Below are positions 3,001-31,477 of a DNA stretch of 31,477 nt, piece by piece; the first letter of the stretch is position 1; the number at the start of each line of letters is the position of its first letter. The notes beneath the pieces were generated by a model. The model did not search any database, was not told the origin of the DNA, and was given only the letters and a program-made list of their open reading frames with translations. The translations under genes and the position numbers were made by a program. The DNA is from a virus: IMG/VR virus record IMGVR_UViG_3300025110_000071, positions 1-31,477 of that record; one strand, 5' to 3'.

Positions 3001-6000
3001 CATAAGAAGGACCCATAATGCGTATGGGCAGCCTGCATCGAACCAAGCGGGTTTCATACAACCCTACGAGGTATCCCCGCTCATGATGATAGTGCTCCAA
3101 TATGGATTTCCCCAGCACATGAGGTCAGATGTCGACGGCAAGACTTTCCATGGTGCTGGAGGCTGGCCTCTCACTGAGGAAGGTGAGACTGATTACACGA
3201 AAAGAGATGCGATGCTGCAACTCTTCGACCATGCCATGAGAGGTGGTGACATACTCCCGTATTATCAGAATCACGAAGGTGAGCCGTTGCAACCTATGTC
3301 AGAGATGATGAAACTGCAGGACGGCGGTAATAACCCTATAATCGTCCCGTTGATAATAGACGCTGTCATCAATCATTGCCATCAACCTGACAATTGGTTA
3401 TCCATGTTCCATCCCCATGGCGAATCAGAGGAGCCTAGAGGGGAAGATTCGGAATGGAGGGCTGGTAACATAGATATTGCCAAACAGTATGACCAATTGA
3501 AGTACGACGTACTAGATGCTGTTCTCAACCCTAAGGCTTGGTTGAGGAAAGTACAGGCTCAACTGGGAATTAGCATCGGTGAAGACATCGCAGGTGAAGA
3601 TGGTGAGATTACACCCGGTCATATCACCATCAAGCGCAAACCACAGACATTCAATAATCCGACAGGGGGGTTCGAGAGATGCAGGCATTGCTTCAAGGAC
3701 GGCCATGTCAATTTCGACACTTTGGTGACTAGAGGCATAGCATCAGGCTGGATTGACCCATTGTCGAGCAGGAAGGAGCAGAAAGAGGGGGTTGCAGCCA
3801 TGCTAGAGTCCGGTGATGCCTCTTTCTGGGGCGATGCAGATACATGGCAGGAGCAGCACAAGGCTGAATCGCCGCACTTAGGGCGCCCAGTAGATAACGT
3901 AGACATTACTGGGCTTAGGTTCACTTGCCCTGATTGTGATGGTCTAGGCATATGCGGGGGCCATCACCCGGAGCGCGGTAGCGAAACACTACCTGACAAT
4001 CTGGCTCACGAGTACAGTAGCATGATGGACAAAGTGAATGGTTACAGGGATGCCGCTGCAGCAGCATCGGCGGTACCTATCTCTCCCGGCCCTGCGTTCA
4101 TACTAGGTGAGAGTCTCGCTGAGTATTTCAATAGAAACCCAGAGATTGACCCGAGGTTGACTGACGACTCAGGTACTAAGTACAACATGGCTTCACTGTT
4201 CAAATCACTAGGTCATGACCAAACCGAGGGTTCCTTCTATGGCCTCAATGAGATGAGTATCAAGGAGGCGGTGGATGCTGCAGTGGCAGCCCACGCTTTC
4301 ACCAAGGGCAACGAAATTAAATCTAGTGATTTCAAGGAGGAGAGTGAGAGGATAGGTAGCAGGTATCGCCCTCCAGAACCCGAGAGTGAGGAATCTGAAG
4401 AAATAGCACAATTACGTGATGCAATACGGAGAGCAGAGGCGGCTGTGCATAACTACCGAGAGCGAGATGCTACTCACAGTGAACACACTTACGTCAACAA
4501 GAGAGGTGTCACCAAGACTAAGAAAGCAGGTGTGCCACCTGTCTGGTCCGACCAGCACCAGAGAGACTCAGATACCCCTCAACGTGAAATCGCCCCATTG
4601 ACTGACGCGGAACAGCGTGCTTTTCGTGCATTGCGTATGACACTCAATAGAATGTACGACCGTCTGAGATTCCTGAATGCAGGTGTCATATCAGTCGATG
4701 CTGCATCCAGAGCAGAGGAACTCCACCAAGAACGCATGAAAGCGTATGAAAAGCAAGAATTACCAGAACCTCAGGAAGGCAGGGGTAAATATAGTCGCTA
4801 CACAGCAGGTTCCAACCCTAAATTGAACAGCACCTATCATGGGATGGATGACAAAGGCCGTTCATATCGATGGGCAGTGGATAAGAATAGGACCTTCGGG
4901 ACACCTAGCCAATGGGGCTTGATTGGGAGGGGGCCTCACATGTTACAATACGACAAGGGGACTCAGGAGTTCATAGCCCATCTGAAGAGGATGGATGAGG
5001 TCAAATCCCGGATGTGGGATGAGGATTTATCCGAGCAGGAACGGGCGTCACTCGAGAAGCGTCACACTGAAATGCTGGCAGAGCAAGACGAGAAATACAA
5101 GAAAGCCCCCTTCAATATCGATTTCGAGGCTCATTTCAATAGCGCTGAGGAGTACATGAGAGTTATGCGAAGTAGTCCTCAGGGTAGTGATGAGTACAAT
5201 ATGGCTGCGTTTAACCTTAGCATGATGCCACCATTATCTAGGATTATGGTCTCAGCACCAGATACGAGGAAAGGCAAAGAGGGGAAGTTCAGGGAGCAGT
5301 ATTTGATATTTCCCAGATTGGATGGGGCCACTCCAGCAGAGGTACTAGGTGCGGATTACATGAAGCATCACTTAGGTGAAGACTACCAGATGGTGGACTG
5401 GACCGAGATACTCAGAGAGATGAGAGGTCAATTGAACTTGCATCAGAGACTCAGTGACATGACACAACCCGTACTTGATGTCGCTCAACAGTCTGGGAAG
5501 TCCTTAGATGAATTACACGGGATGAGTAGTCAGGAATTCAATGAGTTAATCGATAAACTGCAAGTCAAGGACCGCCATGGTGCCCCTGTGCTAGGAGTAG
5601 TCGATTCAGGAGGACCTTCTTTAATGTCACATTTGCACATAACATGCCCCAATGCAGAGTTCCGAGGAGCGTTACAAGCACTGCTGTCCAAAGCGGAGGC
5701 AGATACTACTTCTGATGAGGAGCGAGAGAAGGCTATGGAGGAGATAGAGAAAATGAAACAGGCCTATGCGGAAGGGGGAGAGATGGAGTCACATATCGGT
5801 CTATCGTACCACCCCATGCTTGGATTGAGTGATAACAAGATAGACAACATCCTCAAGGTTAGCGGTCATCAATTCACAGACCGTGATGGTGAGGGCATGC
5901 AAGGCCATCATATCTCCCTCGCCCCAACAACGACTGCTAGCGTCTTGACTGATATGTTCCATATCAAAGCCACTCCTGTGGATATCAATGAGATATCCAA

Positions 6001-17306: not shown

Positions 17307-18709
17307 GTGTGTCGAAGAACGTCCCTCAAGTGATTGAAGACATCGATTGGGAGATGTCAAAGAAGGACTTCAAGTTCTTCTTCGAGGAGATACTCGGTTG
17401 GCAGTTGGCTGACCATCACGCCAAGTGGTTCCATAACCTCAACACCCACAACCGATACTGCGTGAAAGCATCTCGAGACCACGGCAAATCTACTTTGTTC
17501 CTTGGCTATTTGCTATGGAAGGTCATATTCACCCCTCGGCTGGATACCATGATTTTCAGTCACAGCCTAGACCAATCCATCAGGCATATGAGAGGCCTCA
17601 ATGACCTCATTGACTCCAGCCCCATGCTGGCGAAGATGAAGGACAAGGACGCTTGGTCCAAGACCTTCTTCGGTTTCACCAATGGTTCTCGCATCAATGC
17701 CAAGTCGGTGGGTGGTGGTGTCAGAGGTGCTCACCCGGACCTCGTACTCTTGGATGACATACTCTGGGGGACCACTGATACCGAACTGCAACGTGTAGCA
17801 TCTTGGTTCTACGAGGTTCTAGTCCCCACAGTGCACCATACCTCCCAATTGTGCATCGTCGGCACCCCATTCACCCCCACTGACTTGTACACTGAATTGG
17901 AGAGGAGAGATGGTTATCTGGTGGAGACCTATCCTGCAATCAATGAGAAGGGAGAGCCCCTCTGGCCATGGCGTTGGTCCTTGGAGGCATTGGATATCCG
18001 GCGGATGGACATGCCTGCAATCGCCTTCACTCGTGAGTACCTCTGTGAGCCCATGGACGACATGTCCAGCCTTTTCCCATCCACTGTGGTCAATGCATGC
18101 AAGGAGCCGAATCTCACGTTGATGGACAGACGCCCGAAGGATGACGACAGTCAGTACTTCATCGGCTGGGACCCTGCGATATCCTCAGACAGGCAGGCAG
18201 ACTTTACCGTCATGCTAGTACTACGTAGACCGTCTGATGCCCCTGAGACTCTGGAACTCGTCCATGTCGTGCGTCGGAAGGCCATGGACTTCAGGACTCA
18301 GATAATGGAGATACAGAGATTGAACAGCAAGTTCCGTCCTGATGTCATCGAGTTGGAGGCAAATCACTTCCAACGTGTATTCGCCACTGAACTACGTGCC
18401 GATACTGACCTCCCCATCAAGACTTTCATCAGTACCAAACAGAGGAGGGAGAGCCTTCTTATGGGTCTGGTCCTTCGCTTCGAGCGAGAGCAGATTCGCT
18501 TACCGTATGGGGACGAGAGGTCCCGCGAACTCATCTCCAAACTGGAGCACGAACTAATCATGTTTGGTATGAGCAAGGAGGGTAAGTTGGACAGCATCGC
18601 TCGGCACGACGACTTCGCCATAGCCCTCGCTCTGGGTAACTGGGCTACCACTGAGTTCCGTGAGCGCATCATCGATTTGGACTCCTTGATGTCGGGGTTG
18701 ATAGAATGA
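17303..18709 (+). CDS. terL: Terminase large subunit
   Basis: This 468-residue protein is the DNA-packaging motor: an ATPase that pumps DNA through the portal and a nuclease that cuts the concatemer. The ATPase half has a Walker A variant S57-RDHGKST-64, Walker B L147-VLLDD-152 and a coupling motif GTP at 187-189. The RNase H-like nuclease half has D290 in GWDPA, E350/E352 in ELEANHF and D436/D437 in HDDF, the expected acidic triad. Length is normal for an HK97-type terminase. The start is TTG 17303, overlapping the previous stop and five bases after AAAGGG; GTG 17309 is an alternative. Its stop overlaps the LAGLIDADG gene, not the portal directly, which is unusual. Confidence 0.95.
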   Translation: MSVSKNVPQVIEDIDWEMSKKDFKFFFEEILGWQLADHHAKWFHNLNTHNRYCVKASRDHGKSTLFLGYLLWKVIFTPRLDTMIFSHSLDQSIRHMRGLNDLIDSSPMLAKMKDKDAWSKTFFGFTNGSRINAKSVGGGVRGAHPDLVLLDDILWGTTDTELQRVASWFYEVLVPTVHHTSQLCIVGTPFTPTDLYTELERRDGYLVETYPAINEKGEPLWPWRWSLEALDIRRMDMPAIAFTREYLCEPMDDMSSLFPSTVVNACKEPNLTLMDRRPKDDDSQYFIGWDPAISSDRQADFTVMLVLRRPSDAPETLELVHVVRRKAMDFRTQIMEIQRLNSKFRPDVIELEANHFQRVFATELRADTDLPIKTFISTKQRRESLLMGLVLRFEREQIRLPYGDERSRELISKLEHELIMFGMSKEGKLDSIARHDDFAIALALGNWATTEFRERIIDLDSLMSGLIE

Positions 18710-20079
18710 CTTGGGGCACTCTGATAATAGGGGATGATTATGACTCCTTGGTCAAGGAGGCAGACTCTGGGCGTTATTGGGTCACACAGCAGTTGTTGCA
18801 GCACCCTCTGCTCAAGTCCGGCCTGATACTAGACGAGGAGTTAGATGTGACTCCTCAGTATTCCCCGGTCTTGGAAAAGAGTGACACCAGCACCCTTTCG
18901 CCAACTGGTTGGTTCGATGGGACTTTCGGTGTTGACGCTAATCAGTTGGTCAAGGATTTACGTCGAAGACGCAGAGTGCACAAGGGGTATCGGGAGGAGA
19001 TAGATGACACTATTTCCCTCATTCGTACCCTGAAGAGCATGGAAGTCGATTCCCTTCTGAGTTCAATACCATGGATTGATGGCTATGAGCAGACTGTCAA
19101 GAACCTAGGATTGTCTGACCGTGATTTGAAGTCACTGCGTAAGTTCGCGGAGAGACGAGAGGTGTCCCTCAAGCAAGCATGTATCCAGTGGGATAATGCC
19201 AATGGGGTGCTTACCAAATTGTCTCAATTGAATGACTTGGACTCTGACCAACAGACTCTCTGGTCTGAAGCAGTCGAGAAGCGGAATGAAGCCAAGAAGA
19301 TGTGGAGGCATACATTGCATCAGACAGATACCTTGAGCAAGGATGAGGGGGTTTGGCTATCCTCTGCTGCTGAATTACTGCTAGAGAAGGGCCCTATGGG
19401 CTCCCGCCAGATTGTAGAGAGGATTATCAAGTACGACGCCCGGAACAAGGGCCTCACCCCTCAGAAGATGGGTGCTCTCCTGAAGATGTACGGTAGCGAG
19501 CATGACATCGTCAAGAACGGGTCTCGTTGGGAGTCCGAAGGCATGAATCACGATTTGCTTCTCAAGGACCCATGGGCTTATGCGGCAGGCTTCCTAGACG
19601 CTGATGGTTACATCACCATTACCAAGAGAGGAGAGCCTAGGGCTGGAATGATAGCCACAGGGACTCGAGGGAGGCTGCATTGTGAGCAGATGTACAAGAC
19701 TCTTGGTTGTGGTGTGTTGCAATTGGATTTGAAGATTCATAAGAACAGTCGCCGTAGTCAACACAGACTGCAGTTCTATGGCGCTGATGACTTGCGTAAG
19801 TTACTGAAAGGGGTCCTCCCACATCTCCAATTGAAGACCACACAAGCGAATGCCGTGCTAGAACTCTTGGATTTGAGGGGGCGAAGTAGTGATATCGCTA
19901 AGAATCGCCGTGTTGATTTGTACCGTGTAGTGAAATACGCCAATTGGCAGGATGTTAATGGTAAGGAACTTCTTGAAGAGTGGAAGGTTGATGAACAAGA
20001 CCTCGCCTCAATGGAGGCAGTGGACCCTGAGGTTATCCGCCTCGTGGATGATGCTGGTGGCATATTAGGTGATATTTGA
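18706..20079 (+). CDS. Winged-helix plus LAGLIDADG-domain protein
   Basis: A 457-residue protein. Residues 1-215 are unrecognised, with a basic run RRRRR at 86-90 and helical pairs after it. Residues about 216-277 look like a winged helix (SSAAELLLEKGPMGSRQIVE, later GALLKMYG and NGSRWE). Residues 290-395 are a LAGLIDADG-type domain: the motif is AAGFLDADGYI at 293-303, followed by a typical beta-rich half-site (HRLQFYGADDLRKLL). Both acidic residues of the motif are present; only one motif copy is visible. Homing endonucleases of this family cut DNA and dimerise when they have one motif. The gene is not inside an intron or intein: its start overlaps the terminase stop and its stop overlaps the portal start. 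That implies a role made in step with the packaging machinery, either as a DNA-cutting or DNA-binding packaging factor or as a lodged selfish gene. Confidence 0.8.
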   Translation: MTWGTLIIGDDYDSLVKEADSGRYWVTQQLLQHPLLKSGLILDEELDVTPQYSPVLEKSDTSTLSPTGWFDGTFGVDANQLVKDLRRRRRVHKGYREEIDDTISLIRTLKSMEVDSLLSSIPWIDGYEQTVKNLGLSDRDLKSLRKFAERREVSLKQACIQWDNANGVLTKLSQLNDLDSDQQTLWSEAVEKRNEAKKMWRHTLHQTDTLSKDEGVWLSSAAELLLEKGPMGSRQIVERIIKYDARNKGLTPQKMGALLKMYGSEHDIVKNGSRWESEGMNHDLLLKDPWAYAAGFLDADGYITITKRGEPRAGMIATGTRGRLHCEQMYKTLGCGVLQLDLKIHKNSRRSQHRLQFYGADDLRKLLKGVLPHLQLKTTQANAVLELLDLRGRSSDIAKNRRVDLYRVVKYANWQDVNGKELLEEWKVDEQDLASMEAVDPEVIRLVDDAGGILGDI

Positions 20080-21938
20080 TGGCAGATGAAGGTCGTATTG
20101 GGCGTTTCCTCGATAGGATGACAAAACCGTTCCGTCGTAAGACTACCCCTGAGCCGATAATGCCCCTTTGGAAGGCTGGCATACAGGAACCTGTCCTTGT
20201 CCAAGGTGTCAGCATTCCAGCACTCTACGCCACTGTGCAGGAGAGCATCATACTACGTACTACAATGAACACCCTCTGTCAGGAGATATTCAGGCGGGGC
20301 TTCTACTGGAAGAGGAAGTTCCACAAGCAATGCATGGATTGCGATGAGGAGTTCCAGCATGACGTCGATGAGTGCAAACTCTGTGGTAGTAGTGAGTTGA
20401 AGTCTGCTGACGCTGACCAGATTATCTACCCTAGGTGGTTCATCAAGCAGCGCAATAGCATGGACCAGTCATTCATGGATGTCCTCCGTGAAGTCGAATG
20501 GGACTTGAACATAGTCGATGATGGGTTCTATATCCTCGTCAAGGAGTATTACTTGGACCCCAAGGACGGACAGATACAGTTCTACAGGGTGAGGGATATA
20601 GTACGTGGCGACCCCACCTTCATGCGTATAGTGGCGGACAAGAAGGGGACTCGAGGTGGTCGTTATCTCATATGCCCCGTTCACAGGGACAAGACGTACC
20701 CACATAGCAAGGAGAGTCAGAAATGCGAGACCTGCAACCTCGATTTGCAGGACGTCCACTTCATCAATACTGCAGGTTCGGGCAAGACCCAGTACTACAT
20801 CGAAGGCGAGGTAGTCCACGTCTCCAAGTTCAATCCATCCAAACTCTATGGGCGTAGCCCAGTCGCTACACTGTGGCGTCAGGCGATGACCCTCACAGCA
20901 ATGGACAATTACATGTACCTCGCTTATCAGAAGAGGAGGATACCCAGAGGGGTACTCGCTATAACCACTGATAACATCCAATCCACAGCCTCCTTCTGGA
21001 AGGGTGCAGAGGAGAAGATGGAGCGTGACCCGAATTACATCCCCAAGGTGGGCATAGAATCAGCCACTGGGAGAGGTCGTGTGGAGTTCGTCCGCTTCAT
21101 GGACTCATTGGACGAGATGCAGTATGGTGCAGTCCGTGATGAGTTGAGAATGCGAATAGCAGCCTTCTATGGAGTCTCCAACATCTTCATGATGGATAGT
21201 GGCAAGGGTGGTGGACTCAACAACGAGGGCCTGCAGATTCTGGTCACCAACCGAGCAGTGGAGTTCGGTCAGAAACTGTACAAGAGGGACATCTTCCCTC
21301 GAATCTTCGAGGAGATGGGCATGACTGACTGGGAATTGACGCTGTACCCGAACGAGGAGGAGGATGACGTCACCCGTCTCCGTAGGGATGAGATGGAGGT
21401 CAATATCGCGCAGAGGATGCAGCAACTCGGCTTCCAACCCGAACTGACTGAGGATGCAGGTAGGGACATACGGTTCGTCTACAAGAAGCCCTCTCCTGAG
21501 GAGATGGAGCAGCAAGAGCAGTTGCAGAACGTGCAACAGCCCGGAGGAGGCGGGTCACCGCCACCAGCAGCACCGCCGCCACCAATGGCTCGCCCACCTA
21601 TGCCAATGGCAGGTGCTGGGATGGGGATGGCGCCCGGCATGCCGATGGGGAGACCTCCTATGAGAGGTCCCATGCCTGCAATGGGAGGTGCTGGAATGCC
21701 GATGGGAGGGGCAATGCCGCCCGGTGGCGCTCCAATCATGATGATGGAGAAAGGGGTGACTGGAGTACAATCCCCCAACTCCTCAGGTAGGGATTCCCAG
21801 TTATCAGGCGGGCGTAGGAAGACCAAGCAGCGAGGGGAGGAGGACTCACCTGAAGTGAAGGCTCAGAAGCAGATAGAGCAAGCCATGCGACAGGCTGAAG
21901 ACCCCATGGGTAACCAACCCAAGTCCAATCTCTCCTAA
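20079..21938 (+). CDS. Portal protein with two inserted zinc ribbons
   Basis: Starting at ATG 20079, which shares one base with the preceding TGA, this 619-residue protein is the probable dodecameric portal through which DNA enters the head. Portal-like features are the N-terminal wing with a helical region, the segment EVVHVSKFNPSKLYGRSP, the helix after it, and the VSNIFMMDSGKGGGLNNEG region, then a long stem/crown helix (RDEMEVNIAQRMQQLGF). Two zinc ribbons are inserted in the wing: C85-x2-C88 with C99-x2-C102, and C199-x2-H202 with C216-x2-C219. The C-terminal 110 residues are low complexity, dominated by Met, Pro and Gly from about 500 to 560, then charged. Family assignment rests on this architecture and on position after terL and before the protease and capsid genes. 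Confidence 0.88.
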   Translation: MADEGRIGRFLDRMTKPFRRKTTPEPIMPLWKAGIQEPVLVQGVSIPALYATVQESIILRTTMNTLCQEIFRRGFYWKRKFHKQCMDCDEEFQHDVDECKLCGSSELKSADADQIIYPRWFIKQRNSMDQSFMDVLREVEWDLNIVDDGFYILVKEYYLDPKDGQIQFYRVRDIVRGDPTFMRIVADKKGTRGGRYLICPVHRDKTYPHSKESQKCETCNLDLQDVHFINTAGSGKTQYYIEGEVVHVSKFNPSKLYGRSPVATLWRQAMTLTAMDNYMYLAYQKRRIPRGVLAITTDNIQSTASFWKGAEEKMERDPNYIPKVGIESATGRGRVEFVRFMDSLDEMQYGAVRDELRMRIAAFYGVSNIFMMDSGKGGGLNNEGLQILVTNRAVEFGQKLYKRDIFPRIFEEMGMTDWELTLYPNEEEDDVTRLRRDEMEVNIAQRMQQLGFQPELTEDAGRDIRFVYKKPSPEEMEQQEQLQNVQQPGGGGSPPPAAPPPPMARPPMPMAGAGMGMAPGMPMGRPPMRGPMPAMGGAGMPMGGAMPPGGAPIMMMEKGVTGVQSPNSSGRDSQLSGGRRKTKQRGEEDSPEVKAQKQIEQAMRQAEDPMGNQPKSNLS

Positions 21939-21949
21939 GCAATAGATTA

Positions 21950-22330
21950 ATGAGCAAGTCGTTCCTCGAAGGGACGATGTCGGACACGATTGTCAAACTC
22001 GACCCAATGGTTAGGAAACTCGAAACTAGTATTAGCGAGTTCAAGAACGCCCTGCAAAACAACGACTTGGTTGCTGCTCAGCAGTTCCTGAGGTCCATCA
22101 ACCAGACCAGTGACTACCTCTCGGAGGATGTCACTTCAATCTACAAGTCAGAGACAGAGGCTAACAAGGCTGTCGGGGTGAATGACATCTACGCTGGTGG
22201 TGCACCAGTCTTGGAATTCAAGGACCAAGGTGCCATCATCAAGGGTGACAGGCCTCTGGGATACATAGGCCCTGATGGAATCCAATCTAATTGGAAACCA
22301 CAACACGGTTTCGGACAGAGGGTTGACTGA
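21950..22330 (+). CDS. Small helical head-region protein
   Basis: A 126-residue protein from ATG 21950, eleven bases after the portal stop; ATG 21977, preceded by AAGGG, would remove nine residues. Residues 10-75 form amphipathic helices (DPMVRKLETSISEFKNALQ) suited to a coiled coil. The C-terminal third is Gly/Pro-rich with beta-like stretches and ends GFGQRVD. There is no recognisable family. The neighbourhood (portal, then three small genes, then protease and capsid) is where minor head or scaffold-assisting proteins are usual. Its stop overlaps the next ATG by one base. Confidence 0.7.
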   Translation: MSKSFLEGTMSDTIVKLDPMVRKLETSISEFKNALQNNDLVAAQQFLRSINQTSDYLSEDVTSIYKSETEANKAVGVNDIYAGGAPVLEFKDQGAIIKGDRPLGYIGPDGIQSNWKPQHGFGQRVD

Positions 22331-22686
22331 TGTCAGATGACGTCAGTACTCTCGTAGGTGCTCTCATCACCAAGATGGAGCGCATGGATGGCGATATCAA
22401 TACCCTCCAAGCGCAGAACGTCGAACTGAAGAAGATGGTCTCCAATCCAGATTTGCTATTGAAGCAGGCTGGTTTCGTCAGGGCTGTGACCCCAGCCACT
22501 GAGGATGTATGGGGTGACCCTCTCAGAGGTGAGAGGAATGAGGTCATCGAGAAGGCTGCAATCGCCATCGATGGTGTCATGGTCATGCCGGAGTCCAATG
22601 CTGATTGGCACGAGATGGGTTGGGATGACATTCATGCAATGGCCAATGAGGCCGCAGTAGTAGAAGGAAGGCCGGTGGACCAATGA
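22330..22686 (+). CDS. Small protein sharing a C-terminal motif with the scaffold
   Basis: A 118-residue protein whose ATG overlaps the previous TGA. Residues 1-38 look like a coiled coil (LVGALITKMERMDGDINTLQ). Near the C terminus M96-GWDDIHAMANEA-108 closely matches the end of the protease/scaffold protein at 31094-31129 (MSWDDVHRLAGKA), and both are preceded by a PES/PET turn. In both proteins a predicted coiled coil (ITKMERMDGDI here, VLAMSDRIDNM there) lies upstream. I infer that the two share a docking element, perhaps for the capsid or portal, and that this may be a small scaffold-like protein. No known family is recognised. Confidence 0.7.
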   Translation: MSDDVSTLVGALITKMERMDGDINTLQAQNVELKKMVSNPDLLLKQAGFVRAVTPATEDVWGDPLRGERNEVIEKAAIAIDGVMVMPESNADWHEMGWDDIHAMANEAAVVEGRPVDQ

Positions 22687-23318
22687 AACCAATGAAAGTG
22701 ATAGCAGGGGAGCACGCTCCTGATGTGGATGACCTACTAGAGAAAGCCAAGGACATGGATGACATGCTCACCAAGGTGGCTGAACTCAGAGACGACTCAC
22801 AGATGAGGAACATCACTGGTGTGGAGGAGGCTCCAATGTCTCACTACTGGACCAACCAGCAGCAACCGGAGGAGGGAATCGAGAGCGTTACGAACAGGGG
22901 TGCACTCAGTGAGACCATCTCCTTCGACACCAATGCCAACCCACACCAGACGGGCTCTACCCTATCTGCACACGAGAATAGCGGTGGGGAACTGAAGAAG
23001 GCAGGTCTCGAAGACCTACTAGCAGGTGCTGGTGGTGGCCCGAAACCACCCGGTGGACCACCCGGCTTACCCGGCATGGGCAAGCCACCCGGTATGGACA
23101 AGCCACCTATGGGTGACATGGATGACATGGGTGATGATGACCCTGACGGCCTCGCTGATAGAATCAAGGGTCTAGTCGATAAACTAGCAAGTAAGGCAGG
23201 TGGACCAGAGAAGATGCCTATGCCACCCGGTGGACCACCCGGTGGACCACCCGGTGGACCACCCGGTGCAGGCGGACCACCCGGTGGTATGCCAAAGCCA
23301 CCCGGCGGACCAATGTGA
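22683..23318 (+). CDS. Protein with PPGG-repeat tail
   Basis: A 211-residue protein starting at ATG 22683 with a four-base ATGA overlap. Residues 1-45 are an acidic amphipathic helix (DVDDLLEKAKDMDDMLTKVA). The middle (50-115) is polar and contains ordered-looking stretches such as VTNRGALSETISFDTN. From about 118 on it is dominated by Pro, Gly, Met and Asp, ending in tandem PPGG units. The repeats have a period of four residues, so they are not a collagen triplet repeat. Low-complexity Pro/Gly tails on the portal and on this neighbour suggest flexible, possibly interacting, head proteins. Function unknown. Confidence 0.7.
   Translation: MKPMKVIAGEHAPDVDDLLEKAKDMDDMLTKVAELRDDSQMRNITGVEEAPMSHYWTNQQQPEEGIESVTNRGALSETISFDTNANPHQTGSTLSAHENSGGELKKAGLEDLLAGAGGGPKPPGGPPGLPGMGKPPGMDKPPMGDMDDMGDDDPDGLADRIKGLVDKLASKAGGPEKMPMPPGGPPGGPPGGPPGAGGPPGGMPKPPGGPM
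23223..23270 (+). repeat. Four tandem 12-bp repeats (PPGG units)
   Basis: The unit CCACCCGGTGGA occurs head to tail three times from 23223, with a fourth copy differing by one base (GTGCA end). Related single units lie upstream near 23046-23066 and downstream near 23277. Each encodes Pro-Pro-Gly-Gly. The unit is close to an inverted repeat of itself. It is inside the coding frame, so it is a coding microsatellite that can change length by slippage without a frameshift. Confidence 0.9.
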
Positions 23319-23336: not shown

Positions 23337-26300
23337 GTGTCTAGAGAGGACCCTCACCAGTTCTATCTAAGGGCTCGTGAAGATTTCATAAAGTCTCCCG
23401 GTCTCAACGAAGCAGCCAATCTCTACTTCGCTGTTGAGAACCTGCACGCTCACGGTATTCCTTTCCACACTCCCGACTCTGTGAGGAAGGCGTATCTCCT
23501 ATTGAAGAACGAAGACGTCATTGAGGGGGATGATGACAGTGAGAGTGGCTCTTATGGTGGATTCAAGGGTCAGACCGAGCAGGAAAAAAGAGACTTGAGG
23601 CGATTAGCACGAGAGAATGCTGATAGAAGAAAGGGGAAGACAGGGACTAAGTTTCGCAGAATGGACACCCCTAGCAACTACCCAGACCTACCTCCTGCAT
23701 TCGACCCCTCCACATCAGACCTGCCTTTGAGTGATTTCTTCAGGCACCACAACAAGGACTTGAGGACGTTGTGGGAATTCATGGCAGTGAATGAGAGGGT
23801 GGTCCCAGAGCAAATGGTAGATGCGTTCTATTCCTATCGCCCGACTGGTGACCACCCCCTCAGTAGCATATTCGATAGTGGGTTGGATGGCCAGAGCAAA
23901 TGGCACTCTCTCCTCGATAGGCTCTACACACCCACTAGTTCTGACAATGCAGCGACTCTGGATTCCAAGATGAAGAGGTACGAGGAGAAGTTCGGCTCCG
24001 CACTGGATTCCAATGAGATATCCACAGAGCGCTCCCATCAGGAGATGTTCGGCAAGTTCGATGACAATTCAGTAGGTCTCCATGACTTATTCCTCGGTGG
24101 CTTGGGTACATGGCAAGCCGGGCATAAGATGAATTACGGGCAGGAGGGCGATACAGAGAGTTATCTAGCACATCTCAAGATGAAGATGGAAGGCGTGCCG
24201 CAGTCCATCATCTCCCAGACCCTGTTCAATGAAGATGGCAGCCTCAGGAAAGACCACGCTACCCGTGCCAAGACCGCTATACGAAACTCTGCTGATTCGC
24301 AACAGCAGATGGGGCTCCTCCCCCTCCTACTGGGTCTCGAGAATCTAAGTACTGCAGATGGCAAGACTGCCATCAAGTGGTTCATGGATGGCGCGCAAGG
24401 CAACATCCAGAATAACCCCACCTCCCGCTCGGAGACGAACTTCCTCAATGGACGGAAAGACCCTGAGTCCCTACTGTCGCGTATCTGGAAGAAGCGGCTG
24501 AGCGCCATCTCTGCTGGTCTGACCACACCTCTGATACAGGCAGGGATACAGCAGTCTCCCACTAGAGCGACAGACATGTCCGGTTCATATGGTGGGAAGA
24601 ACTACAGGGGTTTCAAGAGGGACCCTTCCAGTCGTGAGGCGGACTTGTGGCACAAGGCCCTAGTATGGTGTAGAGCCGACAAGGATGGAGTGCATAAGTT
24701 GCACAGGGAAGAGAACCCCCCTGTGTTCCATCAGATGATGAACGAGTTCGGCATCCTACCGAATGGGAAGGGACATTACTCAGGCAGTCATCCTAAGATA
24801 AATGAGAAGTTGATTGACGATTGGTTGACGAATGGAGTCAAGGGCATCACTCGGGAGCAAGTAGCCAAATTGAAGGAATGGAAGGAGAAGGTCGAGAAGT
24901 ACTCGAGTAAGGATTGGACCAAGACAGCATGGGGAGCACCATATCACGCCCCTACTCATCCAGACGGAAAAGACTCCTTCTCCAAGGTGTATCACGACAT
25001 ATTCGCCTCTGGTGAAGGAGGGCACAGCATGAGCCCTGCCGATTTAATGCAAGCGATGCACCAGATGTTCGGTGGCATGTTCACGATGAGGCCTCATTAC
25101 GAGGCCAGTGATTTGCAAGGGAGCAATAAGAAGACTGTCAGGCAGGTGATATACGATGATGATGGGGTCGACACCCGGCGGGGCGGGGATGCTGACTTCG
25201 GTGGCTGGGCTGCAGCCACTGACATGATTGGGGAGAGTGGCATGGTGCCATACGCAGGGCGTGGGGAGTCAAAGGAGGGCGAACCGCTAGGGATGGACTA
25301 CAACTCTTGGTTAGGGATGCTCCTACCCAAGGACCGTGACATCATCAGCAATCTCGAGGGCTCAGGGAGCCCCTTGTATAGCACTAATAGCATGTATGAC
25401 TTCGCTGCGTTACCCAAACTCCCATTCTCCCTGAGGGACTATCACAAACAGCGTAGGTCTGCGGACCCACCGCAAAGGTCTGGTGACCGGATAGGGGACG
25501 GTCTCCATTTATCTAGCGATGATGCGAGACGACATATGGCTCATCAAACTAGTTACAACCTAGGCTCCACCTATCCCCATGAGGAGGAGCATGACCTAGG
25601 GGATGCCGATAGCATGACGCACCTCATCGACCTAGTGATGGGGATATTCCAAAGTCATGGGCAACCCCATTCATTCTTCGATGAGTTCTTAGGTGGTCCT
25701 GATTACTTCCTCAGTCAATTGCTAGACCGCCGTCATGACCCAATCACCGAGGACGTCTCCTCCCCCCTTCCAAATCCAGACCTCGCGACTATCGGGAGAT
25801 TGCTCGAAGGGGCGAATCTGATGCGCTACTTGAAGGAAGGTCGTACTGGCCATGAGAAGATAGCAGACTCGCCGTATGACAATATCGGGGACCGATACGC
25901 CCTCTACTACCATGACGAGGATGGGATATACCCCGGTACTGAGGGGGAGAGTGATGGATTGCTGCATGGCTTGGAGCCTGATACCGGGAGGGGTGACTCA
26001 GTTCCCCAACGCTTCAATGAGTTCAAAGCCTCTCCTGAGGCCACACCTATCGAGAACCTCCTCATACATCCCCACGAGAGAGTGTCCCATGGTAATAGGG
26101 GCATAGGCTCAGTGAAGGAATTGAGAGAACTGTTGGCAGGCCACCCCTCTGCCCCAGAATCCCTCGACTCCGTTTTCCATCAGCAGAGACTCAGTGCGAT
26201 AATCGCTGACTTGGCTAATAGGAAGGGTTGGGATAAAGAACGCGAGAGAACGGAACTCAGCAGAGCGACAGGGGCGATAGCCCCTGCGGAAACAGATAGA

Positions 26301-29300
26301 GTCGACGAATGGGGTAAATGGGTCCCACATGGTGGGATGGAGAACTATGATATATACCCCGTATTAGACCCAGATTCCGACAGCACTTGGACTACGGGTC
26401 GTTTCGGTAGACCTAGCCATGCAGAGGGCCCCTTGGCACGCCCCAGTCCTCTGTTGGAGGCAGATGACGAGGAGAACTGGGACAGCAATTTCAATGATAA
26501 CTTCTTCAAGTACCTAATCACATCGAGGGCCTATCGGCTGGGTAGCAAGAGACTCCAACAAGGTCGCTCAAGCGTCGACATGGGTCAGGGCTTGGTCGGT
26601 GACATGGGTCTGGGGGGTGGTAGTGAGGCAGAGGAAGATAGTGAGGAAGGTTCTGGGTACCTGCTTGCCCCAGAGCCCTTCTCTCTCATGTCTCGTCATA
26701 TAGAACGACTACGGGATTTGGCCCTAACCTTCTCAGAGGACAGCATAGCGCGCAAGAGGGTCGAAGAAGCCATACGCAAGCAGCAGGAGATGCAATTCCA
26801 AGTGGCGTATTCCAATCAAGGTGCCTTCGATGATTCCGATGCTCAGATTGGTAGGGTGAACTATGCTCATATGTTCCTCAGAATGATGGGGGATACCTTG
26901 CATCACACTGGTCTCGTCGCTCAGGCTCTCAAGAAGCACTTCATCTCACAGGACCAGAATAATGCTGGCCTCTTCGGGCCGGACCCTCAGGGATATGCGA
27001 ATCACATGGAACTCCTCCATTTCGCTAACTCCCTGCTTCACGCCCCTGACCAATCATGGCGGAAGGCCTTGGGTACAGAGATGGCCAAACTAGGTGATGA
27101 GCCCCTCTCCAATCAGATATCGGAGCCTCATACGGTATCATCCTACATATCTCCCGTGGTGAGAGAGGGAGTCTACAATCTCGAAGCAGGTCAGTTCGAG
27201 TCCGCAGAGGCAGATGGAATCGAGCATGAGCGAATGACTGGGGCCTTCAAAGGCGCTGAGATACCCAAGGGGACAGCCATCGCCCGACATTACATAGAGA
27301 ACGGGCATGGGATAGGAGGCGCTGATGTGCATGCTCGTGCCCGCCGTGCTTTGGCTATTCTAGATTTGTATAACTCGCCGGAGGACTTCATGGGGGACCT
27401 AGACAACATCTACTCTAGAGGCTCTAGAGGAAGGACCGTGACAGGCCCTGAAATCCAGAGGGGTAAGAGTGACTCTGTCGACAGCATTCGTTTCGCAGGG
27501 ACAACCAATCAAACGCGTGATGATTTCAGCGCCCTCATGTCGGTGCTTGGGAATATGGACACTGACTCCCGGAAGACTACTAGAGCCATTAGCGTACGAG
27601 ATAATGAGCCCCTTGGTGACTGGGGTGCAGGCTTCAATCAGTCAACTAGTATGGGCAAAGCCGCTCGTGGCAGAAGGATGGCCAATGCCACCCGTAGTAT
27701 TTCTCGTTTGCTGCACCCGTATAGTTGGGACTATGAGGGTAGCAGTGGTAAATTGTCTCTCAGCGAGACTGATAAGCCTAAGACCGTCCCCTTCGGTGGC
27801 AAGGAAGGCCTAGCGCCCTTGTCTCTCTGGTCATCGGGTGCACTCAAGCGGCGAGGAGGGAGTGTTACCCGTGCTAGCATCAATCCCACGTACACTGGCG
27901 GCCTCCCCACCATGACTGCCACTCATGGGGTTCCCGGAGAGGACAGAGCGAGAATCCATGTCGCTCCCAATGTCGCTAATCACCTGTTTGGTGAGTCTCT
28001 GGGCTATGAGGGTGATGTTCTTCACTCACCAGAGGCGGCGGACTACTACGAGACTGGTAATCAGAGAACAGCCGCTCAAAGGGAGTTGAGTACAGTGCCG
28101 CCTAACGAGACCATGGGAGATAGCGGTATCATGGCTCGGGGCTTCGACCTCGAGTTAGACGTACTCACAAACGAGGACCTCATTCACAAGAAGGACGAAG
28201 GGGACCCAGTCCCCATCAAACCCATGCACCGCATCTTCGCCCTCGATGACCTCGAGCATCTGAGAGGGTTCTCTGATGACTGGGTAGTCTCCTCTTGGCC
28301 TGAGGGGGAGAGGGTCATCGTTCACAAGAAAGGCAAGAAACTAGTCATCACCAACAGTGGTGGTAAGAAGGTCGCTATCCCAAACAAGGTCCGCAAAGAC
28401 ATCAGGAAGGCGTATGATGCTGATTTCATAGTGGATGCGATATGGGACGACGAGTGCCTGCATATCGTTGATGTCATCCAAGTCGCGGATGAGAAGGTAT
28501 GGGACGACCGAACGAAAGACAGAAATCGTTTGCTGCGTGCGAAATTCGAGGCTACTGATAACGTATCGATACCTGCACCTATCAATACCAAGAGAACCGA
28601 TAGTGAGGGACTGCAACGTGCATATGATGACCTCATGAAGGAGAAGGGGGTTAAGCAAATCCTCTTGAGGGACGCCGAAGCGACTTACATGAGAGGGGAA
28701 TCAAGACATCCGAAATGGGTCTTGTGGAGGCCTGACAAGACTATCGATGTCCGAGTGGTGTGCTCTTCTGGCGCACAGCATTGTCTAGGAGTTGGCCCTA
28801 TTGACGAGGAGATGGCTAGGAGCATTGGCAATCGCAGTCAGGAGTACGAGGGTGAGCATTACATGGATGTCGGTTCCCTGTACAGCACTAAGGTCGAGGA
28901 GGGGGATTACATCACAGTGGCTGTCTCTAGCACTTCCGTCACCAGCAGGAAGAAGACTGACATCTACCAAGTCAACGCCCCTCGATACATAGGCCCTTCA
29001 GAAAGTCATGCCACTGATAGTATTGACACCCTTCGTATTCTCTCGCCTGCTACAGAGCGTAACATACCACATAAGGTCAGGGTGAAGAAAGGCAATGTGC
29101 TCATCTCCTTCCCTCTAGGTGATGTGGTGTACGAGACTGAGTCCATAGGTCATGGTTTCATTATCAAGTCAGTCGATGCCCCTTCAGACTACCTCGGTAG
29201 GATAGCGGAGTCACAGAGGGACTACTGGGCTCCCCTCGCTGCCGTCCTTCTCAGGAGTGAGAGCGAGAAGATGAAAGAGAAGGATGAGAAGGAGGCTGTC

Positions 29301-29729
29301 GTGCCAGAACCCCCAGCCAATCACGACAAGAAGCCGAAGAAGGTACTGAAGCCTTCCGAGAGGCTACTGAAGGACCCCGAACTCGCTAAGTCCATCGTAG
29401 TCTCACTGCATAAAGTCGAGGAACTCCTGAAGGAGAAGATTACTTGGACAGGTCCCAAGGGCTTGGGTATCGACCATGGTAGTCCCATAGAGAGCCCATC
29501 CGGCCCTACTGAGAATACCGAGGGTTACAATCTGCCAGACCACGACCCCGGTCACAGGCAGGAGAAGTACGGTGCGTGTTGGTGTGGCGCTGAGAAGGGC
29601 CAGACCTGTGAGCAGGGTAGGGCTCACAAAATGGAGGACTGTCCTATATCACACCCTCCTAGGGATGAGAGCAAGGACCCGAAACACATACGTTTTTCTC
29701 ATTCTTCTCGTGAAGATTCTTCCGTGTGA
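23337..29729 (+). CDS. Giant protein with degenerate DNA-ligase-like C-terminal domain
   Basis: A 2,130-residue protein. The start GTG 23337 is preceded by GAGGTGGTGAT. The first about 1,600 residues are soluble, rich in Asp, Ser, Gly, His and Arg, helical in part, and not recognised. Residues about 1630-1900 resemble the nucleotidyltransferase and OB domains of ATP-dependent DNA ligases, but the catalytic residues are replaced (see the separate entry). The region 1930-2020 is Lys/Glu-rich and helical (KPSERLLKDPELAKSIVVSL). The tail holds Cys and His at C2081, C2083, C2091, H2097 and C2102, a likely zinc site. It lies between small head proteins and the protease/capsid genes, so it may be a virion or assembly protein. 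A single intact frame of 6.4 kb with no break argues that it is selected as one protein. Role of the ligase-like part is unknown: DNA-end binding without catalysis is my leading guess. Confidence 0.85.
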   Translation: MSREDPHQFYLRAREDFIKSPGLNEAANLYFAVENLHAHGIPFHTPDSVRKAYLLLKNEDVIEGDDDSESGSYGGFKGQTEQEKRDLRRLARENADRRKGKTGTKFRRMDTPSNYPDLPPAFDPSTSDLPLSDFFRHHNKDLRTLWEFMAVNERVVPEQMVDAFYSYRPTGDHPLSSIFDSGLDGQSKWHSLLDRLYTPTSSDNAATLDSKMKRYEEKFGSALDSNEISTERSHQEMFGKFDDNSVGLHDLFLGGLGTWQAGHKMNYGQEGDTESYLAHLKMKMEGVPQSIISQTLFNEDGSLRKDHATRAKTAIRNSADSQQQMGLLPLLLGLENLSTADGKTAIKWFMDGAQGNIQNNPTSRSETNFLNGRKDPESLLSRIWKKRLSAISAGLTTPLIQAGIQQSPTRATDMSGSYGGKNYRGFKRDPSSREADLWHKALVWCRADKDGVHKLHREENPPVFHQMMNEFGILPNGKGHYSGSHPKINEKLIDDWLTNGVKGITREQVAKLKEWKEKVEKYSSKDWTKTAWGAPYHAPTHPDGKDSFSKVYHDIFASGEGGHSMSPADLMQAMHQMFGGMFTMRPHYEASDLQGSNKKTVRQVIYDDDGVDTRRGGDADFGGWAAATDMIGESGMVPYAGRGESKEGEPLGMDYNSWLGMLLPKDRDIISNLEGSGSPLYSTNSMYDFAALPKLPFSLRDYHKQRRSADPPQRSGDRIGDGLHLSSDDARRHMAHQTSYNLGSTYPHEEEHDLGDADSMTHLIDLVMGIFQSHGQPHSFFDEFLGGPDYFLSQLLDRRHDPITEDVSSPLPNPDLATIGRLLEGANLMRYLKEGRTGHEKIADSPYDNIGDRYALYYHDEDGIYPGTEGESDGLLHGLEPDTGRGDSVPQRFNEFKASPEATPIENLLIHPHERVSHGNRGIGSVKELRELLAGHPSAPESLDSVFHQQRLSAIIADLANRKGWDKERERTELSRATGAIAPAETDRVDEWGKWVPHGGMENYDIYPVLDPDSDSTWTTGRFGRPSHAEGPLARPSPLLEADDEENWDSNFNDNFFKYLITSRAYRLGSKRLQQGRSSVDMGQGLVGDMGLGGGSEAEEDSEEGSGYLLAPEPFSLMSRHIERLRDLALTFSEDSIARKRVEEAIRKQQEMQFQVAYSNQGAFDDSDAQIGRVNYAHMFLRMMGDTLHHTGLVAQALKKHFISQDQNNAGLFGPDPQGYANHMELLHFANSLLHAPDQSWRKALGTEMAKLGDEPLSNQISEPHTVSSYISPVVREGVYNLEAGQFESAEADGIEHERMTGAFKGAEIPKGTAIARHYIENGHGIGGADVHARARRALAILDLYNSPEDFMGDLDNIYSRGSRGRTVTGPEIQRGKSDSVDSIRFAGTTNQTRDDFSALMSVLGNMDTDSRKTTRAISVRDNEPLGDWGAGFNQSTSMGKAARGRRMANATRSISRLLHPYSWDYEGSSGKLSLSETDKPKTVPFGGKEGLAPLSLWSSGALKRRGGSVTRASINPTYTGGLPTMTATHGVPGEDRARIHVAPNVANHLFGESLGYEGDVLHSPEAADYYETGNQRTAAQRELSTVPPNETMGDSGIMARGFDLELDVLTNEDLIHKKDEGDPVPIKPMHRIFALDDLEHLRGFSDDWVVSSWPEGERVIVHKKGKKLVITNSGGKKVAIPNKVRKDIRKAYDADFIVDAIWDDECLHIVDVIQVADEKVWDDRTKDRNRLLRAKFEATDNVSIPAPINTKRTDSEGLQRAYDDLMKEKGVKQILLRDAEATYMRGESRHPKWVLWRPDKTIDVRVVCSSGAQHCLGVGPIDEEMARSIGNRSQEYEGEHYMDVGSLYSTKVEEGDYITVAVSSTSVTSRKKTDIYQVNAPRYIGPSESHATDSIDTLRILSPATERNIPHKVRVKKGNVLISFPLGDVVYETESIGHGFIIKSVDAPSDYLGRIAESQRDYWAPLAAVLLRSESEKMKEKDEKEAVVPEPPANHDKKPKKVLKPSERLLKDPELAKSIVVSLHKVEELLKEKITWTGPKGLGIDHGSPIESPSGPTENTEGYNLPDHDPGHRQEKYGACWCGAEKGQTCEQGRAHKMEDCPISHPPRDESKDPKHIRFSHSSREDSSV
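28224..29050 (+). other. Ligase-like domain with lost catalytic residues
   Basis: Within the giant protein, residues 1630-1905 follow ATP-dependent DNA ligase order. The motif I position reads W1654-PEGERV-1660 where ligases have KxDGERV, so the lysine that takes AMP is Trp. A motif III-like strand reads FIVDAI (1697-1702) in place of the usual DGE. DRNRLLRAKF matches the conserved ERR-x2-L helix. The motif IV position reads K1773-QILLRDAEATYMRGESR where ligases have EG(I/V)xxK and a Y-x2-G-x-R tail. The motif V position reads W1794-VLWRP instead of WxKxK. A beta-rich OB-like segment follows (VGSLYSTKVEEGDYITVAV, then NAPRYIG). The fold match is by pattern only; loss of the lysines makes ligation unlikely. 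Confidence 0.7.
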
Positions 29730-29761: not shown

Positions 29762-31147
29762 GTGCTCATGCTGGACCAGCGGGTTATCGACCCTGTCTTA
29801 CTGAAAGGCAGGTCCAGTGACTTAGTCGTTGCAGGCTACGCATCAGTCGAGATGGTGGATAAGCAGGGCGACCTCATCACACGCGGTGCACTCAGGGACG
29901 CTTTCGGCAAATTCATGAAATCACCCGGTTTCAGAAACGTCCAACTAGCCCACTCCAATATACAAGTAGGTGAGGTGATACCCACTTACGAGGACACATC
30001 TGGCAGGATGTGGAAGTCAGAGGTTGATGACACCGGCATGTTCGTCGTCATCAAACTACGCAGTGACATAGAGAAGGCCCGTGAGGTCGCAGCAGAAATT
30101 CGCAAGGGGAACCTGAAGTCGTTCTCCATCGGTGGACAGGCTTTCGAGCGTGTCAATAAGCATGATGGCACCAGAGGTGACTATCGTGAGATAAGCCGCA
30201 TGGAGTTGCACGAAGTGACCATTTGCGAGAAGGGCATCAATCCTGAGGCCCAATTTAGAATCCTAAAGGAGGATAAAACAAACGGTGATAATATGACAGA
30301 CCCAATGAATGAATTGCAGAATGTGCTGGAGCGCTTATCCAAGCGTCTCGACGATGCTGAAGCCAGTGAGGCTGATGCTACTCTGAAAGCGAAGGAAGAT
30401 GCTGATAAGTCGAAAGACGATGCAGACAAATCCAAAGATGAAGAGAAGATGGACGAGAACAAAGAGAAGAGCGACGACGGCAAAGAAGAAAAAATGAAGA
30501 AAGGCGACTTAGATGACGTGATTACCACGGACTATCTGAACTGGCTCGAGACGACTGTGAAGTCCGCTGGGTTTGACCCAATGGCAGCACGCGGTCACTT
30601 CGAGGACCCCGAAGACGTGGGCAAGGCTTACCTCCAAGAGGGGAAGCATGGCTACGACCACAGGGGACAGGGCAGCATCGAAGGCGCTGGCGAGGATGAC
30701 TCAAGCAAGAGGCCAAAGATGAACTTCGGGTCCGCACCTAGCGGGAACAAGAACGTCATAAAGGGCGACTACCTTGACGAGTCCAGTGTCGAACCCTCAC
30801 AGATAGAGGAGGCTTATCAGGTCTACAAGGCCGCTGCAAAAGAGCAGCAGTTCAAGACTGACCTCGGTAACCAGTTCTCCATGAGGTTCCAGAAGGAGAT
30901 GCAGGTAGAAGCAGACGTTGCTGCCAAGGCATCTTACGATGCTAGGGACCCTATCACAGACCTTCAGAAGGCTGTTCTAGCCATGTCTGACAGGATTGAT
31001 AACATGGGTACTACAGGTGTTGACATCCAGAAGTCCGCAGCACCTGCGCTGAACGTCCACATTCCTGAGACCACCGAACTGGCACAGATGTCGTGGGACG
31101 ATGTCCACCGACTAGCCGGAAAGGCTCTACAGGGAGGTGACAACTGA
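29762..31147 (+). CDS. Prohead protease fused to scaffold-like tail
   Basis: A 461-residue protein from GTG 29762 (ATG 29768 is equally possible and loses two residues). Residues 1-168 are an HK97-type prohead protease, the serine protease that trims scaffold and capsid during head maturation. Catalytic His64 lies in QLAHS, Ser122 in KSFSIGG, and an acidic partner is likely in the MELHEVTIC strand. The strand order and the VAGYASVEMVDKQGD opening are typical. From about 175 to 250 a Lys/Asp/Glu-rich coiled-coil linker has a repeat (DADKSKD twice). The rest, to 461, is helical and ends with M443-SWDDVHRLAGKA-455, as a delta-domain-like scaffold that binds capsid. Fusion of protease and scaffold in one frame is known in other tailed viruses. 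Its stop overlaps the capsid ATG. Confidence 0.92.
   Translation: MLMLDQRVIDPVLLKGRSSDLVVAGYASVEMVDKQGDLITRGALRDAFGKFMKSPGFRNVQLAHSNIQVGEVIPTYEDTSGRMWKSEVDDTGMFVVIKLRSDIEKAREVAAEIRKGNLKSFSIGGQAFERVNKHDGTRGDYREISRMELHEVTICEKGINPEAQFRILKEDKTNGDNMTDPMNELQNVLERLSKRLDDAEASEADATLKAKEDADKSKDDADKSKDEEKMDENKEKSDDGKEEKMKKGDLDDVITTDYLNWLETTVKSAGFDPMAARGHFEDPEDVGKAYLQEGKHGYDHRGQGSIEGAGEDDSSKRPKMNFGSAPSGNKNVIKGDYLDESSVEPSQIEEAYQVYKAAAKEQQFKTDLGNQFSMRFQKEMQVEADVAAKASYDARDPITDLQKAVLAMSDRIDNMGTTGVDIQKSAAPALNVHIPETTELAQMSWDDVHRLAGKALQGGDN
31133..31140 (+). promoter_or_regulatory. Strong ribosome site of the capsid gene
   Basis: GGGAGGTGA ends six bases before ATG 31147. GGAGGTGA is the full complement of the usual archaeal 16S rRNA 3' end, and I see no equally good site with this spacing elsewhere in the window. 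High translation of the most abundant virion protein is the natural reading. The site lies inside the end of the protease gene. Confidence 0.7.
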
Positions 31148-31477
31148 TGGCACGTAATTATGTACGAACAATACAAGATATGGAAAGATACTACTACGGT
31201 GGTACAGCAACGACCGGGTACACCTACAGCAGTGGGGACATACTAAAGGCAGACGCGCCTCTTATGTCCACAACGGCTGGTACCTACCAAGCAATCTACG
31301 GAAGGAAAGTTTGGTCGCAACTGAACCAAGAGTTCAACGCGTTTAGCATACTTCCAAAGAAGCCTTGGGAGCGAAGTGGGTGGAGAATCATCACCGCCAA
31401 GCCTTCGTTCAACGTAGGCGGCGGACTGGCTGAGAACGCTACTCTGCCAGACACCACCAAGCCTGACTTCCTACACG
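31147..31477 (+). CDS. Major capsid protein, 3' end missing
   Basis: The frame opens with ATG 31147, one base inside the protease/scaffold stop, and is still open at the right edge (110 codons seen). The N terminus is rich in Tyr, Thr and Ser, followed by SQLNQEFNAFSILPKKPWER, then GWRIITAKPSF and GGGLAENATLPDTTKPDF. This is the pattern of HK97-fold capsid proteins around the N-arm and E-loop: an LNQEFNAFSILPK helix and strand, a conserved Trp, and a Gly-rich turn followed by an acidic ENATLP. Direct position after protease plus scaffold and the strongest ribosome site in the window agree. I cannot see the A- and P-domains, so the call rests on the first third and the context. Confidence 0.85.
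   Translation, partial: MARNYVRTIQDMERYYYGGTATTGYTYSSGDILKADAPLMSTTAGTYQAIYGRKVWSQLNQEFNAFSILPKKPWERSGWRIITAKPSFNVGGGLAENATLPDTTKPDFLH

Follow-up and report, generated by a model that had tools for sequence, protein, structure and literature searches.

Near its C-terminus, a giant protein encoded in a viral head-gene cluster carries what is predicted to be the fold of an ATP-dependent DNA ligase, stripped of every catalytic residue and yet more conserved than the rest of the protein. The gene lies in the IMG/VR virus record IMGVR_UViG_3300025110_000071, which was analysed over its whole length of 31,477 bp (referred to as the window), and its product of 2130 aa is referred to as the giant. 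With a probability of roughly 0.6, we regard the ligase-like region as a non-catalytic, ligase-derived docking module of a giant prohead or virion protein, in a position analogous to that of gp115 of HVTV-1. The giant, the domain and its motif remnants map as follows (protein residue numbers equal the domain position plus 1599).

23337 to 29729, plus strand: giant head-module protein, an open reading frame (ORF) of 2130 aa
28191 to 28742, plus strand: pseudo-adenylation domain with predicted DNA-ligase fold, residues 1619-1802 (sequence, model and structure matches)
28296 to 28313, plus strand: motif I remnant WPEGER, with the nucleophilic Lys replaced by Trp1654 (alignment and relatives' columns)
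28434 to 28442, plus strand: motif III remnant DAI in place of DGE, D1700-A1701-I1702 (relatives' columns)
28653 to 28730, plus strand: motif IV-V remnant KQILLRDAEATYMRGESRHPKWVLWR, without catalytic Glu or Lys (alignments and relatives' columns)
28743 to 29048, plus strand: OB-type domain, residues 1803-1904 (VIA-align, motif VI columns and phmmer alignment)
28998 to 29009, plus strand: motif VI position without RxDK, inside the OB-type domain (motif VI columns)

When the single sequence was searched, the DNA_ligase_A_M profile (PF01068) matched at an E value of 3.4e-4, just under the Pfam cut-off, and 20 of the 42 family members matched this profile (best E 5.5e-7). Sequence matches in the PDB up to an E value of 10 were archaeal DNA ligases without exception. 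The phmmer alignment to an archaeal ligase spanned motifs IIIa, IV, V and VI, and a separate weak phmmer segment paired W1654 with the motif I Lys. An AlphaFold model of the domain, built from 42 relatives, reached a predicted local distance difference test score (pLDDT) of 87.1 and a predicted template modelling score (pTM) of 0.73. All 50 PDB matches listed by Foldseek for this model were DNA ligases (best E 6.3e-15), and VIA-align superposed it on the Pyrococcus furiosus ligase 2cfm with a Z score of 21.8 (261 residues, 3.5 Å, 17% identity), spanning model residues 19-305 and hence the adenylation and OB domains together. An earlier note, made from the letters of this DNA, had proposed a ligase scaffold at these coordinates and had named a structure prediction with a Foldseek search as its check; the scaffold emerged from that check with DNA ligases as top matches rather than a different fold, and the coordinates agree as well, as residue 1630 starts at nucleotide 28224 and residue 1905 ends near nucleotide 29050. 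The model therefore predicts that residues 1619-1904 fold as the adenylation and OB domains of an archaeal ATP-dependent DNA ligase, and descent from an archaeal/eukaryotic-type DNA ligase would be the simplest reading.

The best Pfam match of the domain was nevertheless the snurportin cap-binding domain PF21974 (E 1.7e-5), although its 25.4 bits fall below the gathering score of 27. This profile matched 17 of the 42 family members at an E value of 0.1, and PF21974 and PF01068 are both nucleotidyltransferase-fold families. The m3G cap-binding domain of snurportin-1 has a nucleotidyltransferase-like fold that is non-catalytic and used for binding, and the domain of the giant might likewise bind a nucleotide or an RNA 5′ end without transferring it. 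An aromatic residue at the motif I Lys position in about half of the relatives would fit such a role, but Met is the commonest residue there, and the motif V position has Leu or Met. Moreover, the OB domain and the motif VI alignment point to a DNA ligase. Snurportin, a eukaryotic nuclear import factor without an OB domain, was not among the structure matches listed for the domain model, which by itself does not speak against it. We consider a snurportin-like function very unlikely.

Relatives of the domain were collected in two scans of viral contigs, which yielded 315 and 496 stretches in overlapping sets, so that about 500 viral-contig stretches carry the pseudo-ligase domain; the best 80 of each scan were read. 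Motif columns were counted over 135 distinct domains from viral contigs, ignoring gaps. At the motif I Lys position these domains have Met (52), Trp (34), Tyr (32), Ile (7), Phe (6), Ser (3) or Leu (1), and never Lys. The motif III Glu position is hydrophobic throughout (I/V/F/L/M), the Glu-Gly pair of motif IV is not conserved, the first Lys position of motif V is always L/M/V while the second is variable, and the R-x-D-K of motif VI is lost, its positions being mostly A/S/N, G/P/A and E/L/Q. In the window itself, the EG of motif IV has become K1773-Q1774 and the lysines of motif V have become L1796 and R1798. The Y-x2-G...R hairpin is still present, as is the Trp of motif V. These replacements, together with DAI and W1654, are the ones the earlier note had read from the sequence, and its claim that the hairpin and Trp were retained is borne out by the alignment; loss of motif VI comes in addition to what it had described. 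Invariant residues comprise H1631, R1632, D1648, W1649, R1729 and R1734 and, within the motif IV-V remnant, R1778, D1779, Y1784, G1787, E1788, R1790, P1792 and W1794; many of them belong to the ERR helix or to the hairpin of motifs IV-V. None of the motifs that characterise an ATP-dependent DNA ligase as an enzyme (I, III, IV, V and VI) is therefore intact, and no relative with an intact active site was present among the best 80 of each scan, drawn from the about 500 viral-contig matches. The lysyl-AMP chemistry of covalent nucleotidyltransferases needs these catalytic residues, and because they are absent this chemistry is not expected of the domain; nor is nucleotide turnover, since the ATP-pocket positions have turned hydrophobic.

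Loss of catalytic residues could also leave a recently decayed, functionless relic, for which that loss is the sole argument. The ratio of nonsynonymous to synonymous substitution rates (dN/dS) in those close pairs that allowed an estimate was 0.05-0.09, with 0.0 for one pair of nearly identical sequences. These values are rough, as several pairs lie near synonymous saturation, and they indicate that the domain is under strong purifying selection. Upstream of the domain, dN in close pairs was about 2-11 times that of the domain. Likewise, mean column conservation in a 43-sequence alignment was 0.5-0.7 for the domain and C-terminal tail versus 0.14-0.38 for residues 51-1600. Between the window and most relatives, identity upstream of the domain is 12-18% (26% to L004 and 58% to L002), compared with 35-58% within the domain and 84% to the nearest relative, and the contrast between conserved domain and fast upstream region is repeated inside three clades. 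The domain with the C-terminal tail is thus the most conserved part of a fast-evolving giant, an aspect that goes beyond the earlier note: the domain is a conserved core, and about 1550 other residues evolve fast. Because the loss is common to all 135 relatives and coincides with purifying selection and high conservation, it points to old reuse rather than decay. The relic is refuted by these same observations, and the loss looks ancient and maintained, in line with the reuse of an enzyme fold proposed in the earlier note, which had asked whether the Lys was gone from all homologues. Two scans of genome contigs gave no cellular relatives of the domain, and phage records gave no match to it.

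A further alternative holds that the protein serves the viral replisome as a functional ATP-dependent DNA ligase whose catalytic residues are unusual. Published reports (PMC10768690, PMC12999244, PMC10160649) count an ATP-dependent DNA ligase among the replisome components of magroviruses, and PMC7318539 (citing Philosof et al. 2017) places a magrovirus "ATP-dependent DNA ligase gene" beside the prohead protease gene. A separate ligase was sought in 13 near-genome-length relatives (contigs of 90-118 kb, of which completeness is not certified). Profile phrog_114 found nothing in these 13 contigs and did find the HGTV-1 ligase (E 1.8e-72). PF01068 found the domain of the giant only, or nothing, save one weak unrelated ORF, and TIGR00574, too, gave nothing beyond the giant and one weak ORF. 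PF01653 was negative in all 13 contigs, as were PF04679 and PF09414 in the 11 contigs tested. The very weak ligase-profile match (L098; ORF 997-2376 on the minus strand, 459 aa, in the 110-kb contig of L088) was set aside, as it matched no ligase family in Pfam or PHROG, nor any other family, and is unrelated to the profile of the pseudo-ligase family. No true ligase is thus detectable in the 13 near-genome-length relatives, although a very divergent one could escape, and these viruses therefore probably use the ligase of their host.

While the lack of another ligase in these relatives and the published reports could speak for a working enzyme, none of the 135 domains has the motif I Lys, the motif III Glu and the first motif V Lys are always replaced by hydrophobic residues, motif VI is lost, and the gene sits in the head module, away from replication genes. 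A functional ligase is hardly conceivable on these grounds. The published gene and the present one share their place beside the prohead protease, and in both cases no second ligase would be at hand, given the near-genome-length relatives examined here; they differ in that the former is described as a replication enzyme, whereas the window protein lacks catalytic residues and lies in a head gene cluster. Because of the same adjacency to the prohead protease gene, the published magrovirus "ligase" is very probably this dead protein. The literature thus appears already to list this gene as a replication enzyme at the same spot, a point beyond the earlier note, and our data indicate that the gene behind the published statement encodes a catalytically dead head-module protein.

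Around the ligase-like domain, the giant comprises the following regions.

23337 to 23486, plus strand: conserved N-terminal ~50 residues (mean column conservation 0.46 versus about 0.2 beyond)
23487 to 28136, plus strand: fast-evolving middle region, residues ~51-1600, without a recognised fold (conservation 0.14-0.38)
29067 to 29231, plus strand: extra C-terminal subdomain, residues ~1911-1965, predicted strands and a helix (AlphaFold secondary structure; outside the ligase matches)
29304 to 29591, plus strand: conserved C-terminal tail, residues ~1990-2085, including KEKITWTGPKGLGIDHGSPIESPSGPT (conservation 0.56-0.62)

Pfam and PHROG searches gave no family match for the middle region, and the C-terminal tail is shared also by distant clades. 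Near the C-terminus of the giant, at window positions 29597-29660, a Cys-rich stretch (CWCGAEKGQTCEQG...HKMEDC) that might form a zinc knuckle is found only in the window's nearer relatives.

The genes flanking the giant in the window are those of a head module.

20076 to 21938, plus strand: portal protein gene (phrog_18178, E 1e-72; nearest relatives are the HVTV-1/HCTV portals)
21950 to 23318, plus strand: conserved trio of small ORFs, 126, 118 and 211 aa long, separating portal and giant (ORF calls, gene order in relatives)
29762 to 31147, plus strand: Peptidase S78 prohead protease gene (Pfam and PHROG matches)
31147 to 31476, plus strand: start of the next ORF, which is cut by the end of the window; relatives have their major capsid gene here (position)

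Homologues of the giant (about 1800-2600 aa) occupy the same place in marine viral contigs, and the order in relatives is constant, running from portal through the three small ORFs, the giant and the S78 protease to the capsid. In 141 of the 168 loci scored downstream, the protease ORF starts less than 200 bases past the giant; among the other 27, the forward ones have a protease that overlaps the giant, the overlap ranging from a few bases to about 60, whereas the remainder consists of short PF01068 loci in reverse orientation that the script framed wrongly. A portal lies upstream in 61 of 62 loci. Downstream, the capsid is present in 126 of 126, and the three small ORFs each recur in 133-136 loci. 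The head-region placement put forward in the earlier note, next to protease and capsid genes, is therefore constant, and the giant is a core head-module gene of the window's virus group. DNA polymerase B (PolB) is encoded in 13 of 13 relatives' contigs of 90-118 kb, and the capsid of the relative L003 matches that of HVTV-1; judged by portal, capsid and PolB features, the window virus is probably related to the magroviruses, which infect marine archaea. A member of the order Magrovirales would be expected to have a genome of ~90-110 kb with PolB, and head genes akin to those of magroviruses and Druskaviridae. In the contigs of L101 and L177 (G018 and G027), DNA polymerase B is split over two ORFs, as described for Aoguangviridae. 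The 211-aa ORF directly upstream of the giant (22683-23318), whose place is kept in relatives, ends in a Pro-Gly-rich, collagen-like C-terminal stretch. Between terminase and portal, a 457-aa ORF (18706-20079) matches an HNH endonuclease PHROG (phrog_5046, E 5e-10), and HVTV-1 likewise has HNH genes around its terminase and portal. A second giant ORF (window positions 2-7579; 2525 aa, open at its 5′ end) has no Pfam or PHROG match.

Our favoured explanation, a docking module within the giant, would run as follows. An ancestor of magrovirus-like tailed viruses may have captured the core (adenylation and OB domains) of an archaeal/eukaryotic-type ATP-dependent DNA ligase, which would then have been stripped of its nucleotidyl-transfer chemistry and retained as a conserved C-terminal module of the giant. 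The giant would be loaded into the prohead, where pseudo-ligase and tail might act as a fixed docking module that holds it by binding instead of catalysis; the candidate partners are DNA, either as a duplex or at an end, and another component of the head, for example the portal. Meanwhile, the fast region of ~1550 residues might adapt to the host, as in the ejected internal head proteins Alt of T4 and DarB of P1, and HVTV-1 gp115 may be a further example. The gene's place within the head module is the one expected of ejected internal head proteins of the Alt/DarB type. Parallels in HVTV-1, HGTV-1 (in which an annotated virion structural protein stands at the equivalent place) and P1 lend support to prohead entry and docking, the giant presumably being located in the virion and the domain possibly binding DNA.

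Several observations weigh against this explanation. The adenylation part is neutral to acidic (family median net charge –10), which disfavours DNA binding, but the T7 ligase is also acidic (–13) and net charge says little about DNA binding. Upstream, no DNA-binding domain of the ligase type was recognised: Pfam gave no match in the giant to PF04675, the N-terminal helical DNA-binding domain of archaeal-type ligases, and when 921 residues upstream of the domain in the relative L101 were modelled with AlphaFold (pLDDT 75), the model had no significant PDB match. Finally, HVTV-1 gp115 shares its position with the giant without detectable sequence likeness.

The domain could instead be a pure protein-protein assembly part (portal or capsid binding, scaffold retention) that makes no contact with DNA. 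Its hydrophobic ATP-pocket positions, its neutral to acidic charge, the conserved tail adjoining it and its head-module position would all fit, as would the precedent of T4 gp63, an RNA ligase that reportedly (Snopek, 1977) has a separate role in virion assembly. However, it has no known partner, and several of the invariant residues, on the ERR helix and the hairpin of motifs IV-V, are arginines that might just as well contact nucleic acid. We hold this alternative as a tentative but genuine possibility. Doubtful, in our view, is a further reading in which the domain is a non-catalytic clamp on the packaged genome, gripping it for instance near the portal at a nick or DNA end, and serves as the anchor of a fast-evolving giant that exits with the DNA; if true, DNA ligase would have become a universal head component of marine archaeal viruses. 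The giant might also be ejected against the host or its defences, with the pseudo-ligase serving as a decoy on nicks, DNA ends or ligase partners in the host. A position equivalent to that of HVTV-1 gp115 with its toxin- and ADP-ribosyltransferase-type domains, the fast evolution of most of the giant and its DarB-like size speak for such a decoy. Yet the pseudo-ligase is the slowest-evolving part, unlike typical host-facing decoys, and delivery is hypothetical, making this proposal rather improbable.

Among known systems, T4 Alt is an enzyme-bearing protein packed in the head. The Dar proteins of P1, including the ~2000-aa DarB, are internal and co-ejected with DNA (PMC12810830). The giant resembles these head proteins in being very large (DarB) or bearing an enzyme-type domain (Alt), but the sequences are unrelated and the virion location of the giant is presumptive. 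Closer in gene order is gp115 of HVTV-1 (Druskaviridae; L010 24117-28058), a 1313-aa protein encoded between portal and prohead protease in a related archaeal tailed virus. It has enzyme-type domains as well, but in place of a pseudo-ligase these are a zeta-toxin kinase at the N-terminus (E 3e-20) and an ADP-ribosyltransferase at the C-terminus (E 1e-8); it also matches the Alt-like phrog_802, and with neither HVTV-1 gp113 nor gp115 was sequence homology to the giant seen, only a shared position. T4 gp63 (RNA ligase 1 / tail fibre attachment protein) is a ligase-fold phage protein with a virion-assembly role, but it has RNA-ligase activity and does not belong to the head. Archaeal ATP-dependent DNA ligases (2cfm; Thermococcus gammatolerans 9df9; PF01068/PF04679) resemble the domain in how their adenylation and OB domains are ordered and arranged, and the motif I turn, the Asp of motif IIIa, the ERR helix, the Y-x2-G...W hairpin and the region of motif VI are homologous between them. 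They differ from it in that the domain has lost all catalytic residues, has no recognised N-terminal DNA-binding domain, and is embedded near the C-terminus of a ~2000-aa head-module protein with an extra subdomain and tail. The giant clearly illustrates how the fold of a replication enzyme can become the module that is best conserved in a gene of a viral head cluster.
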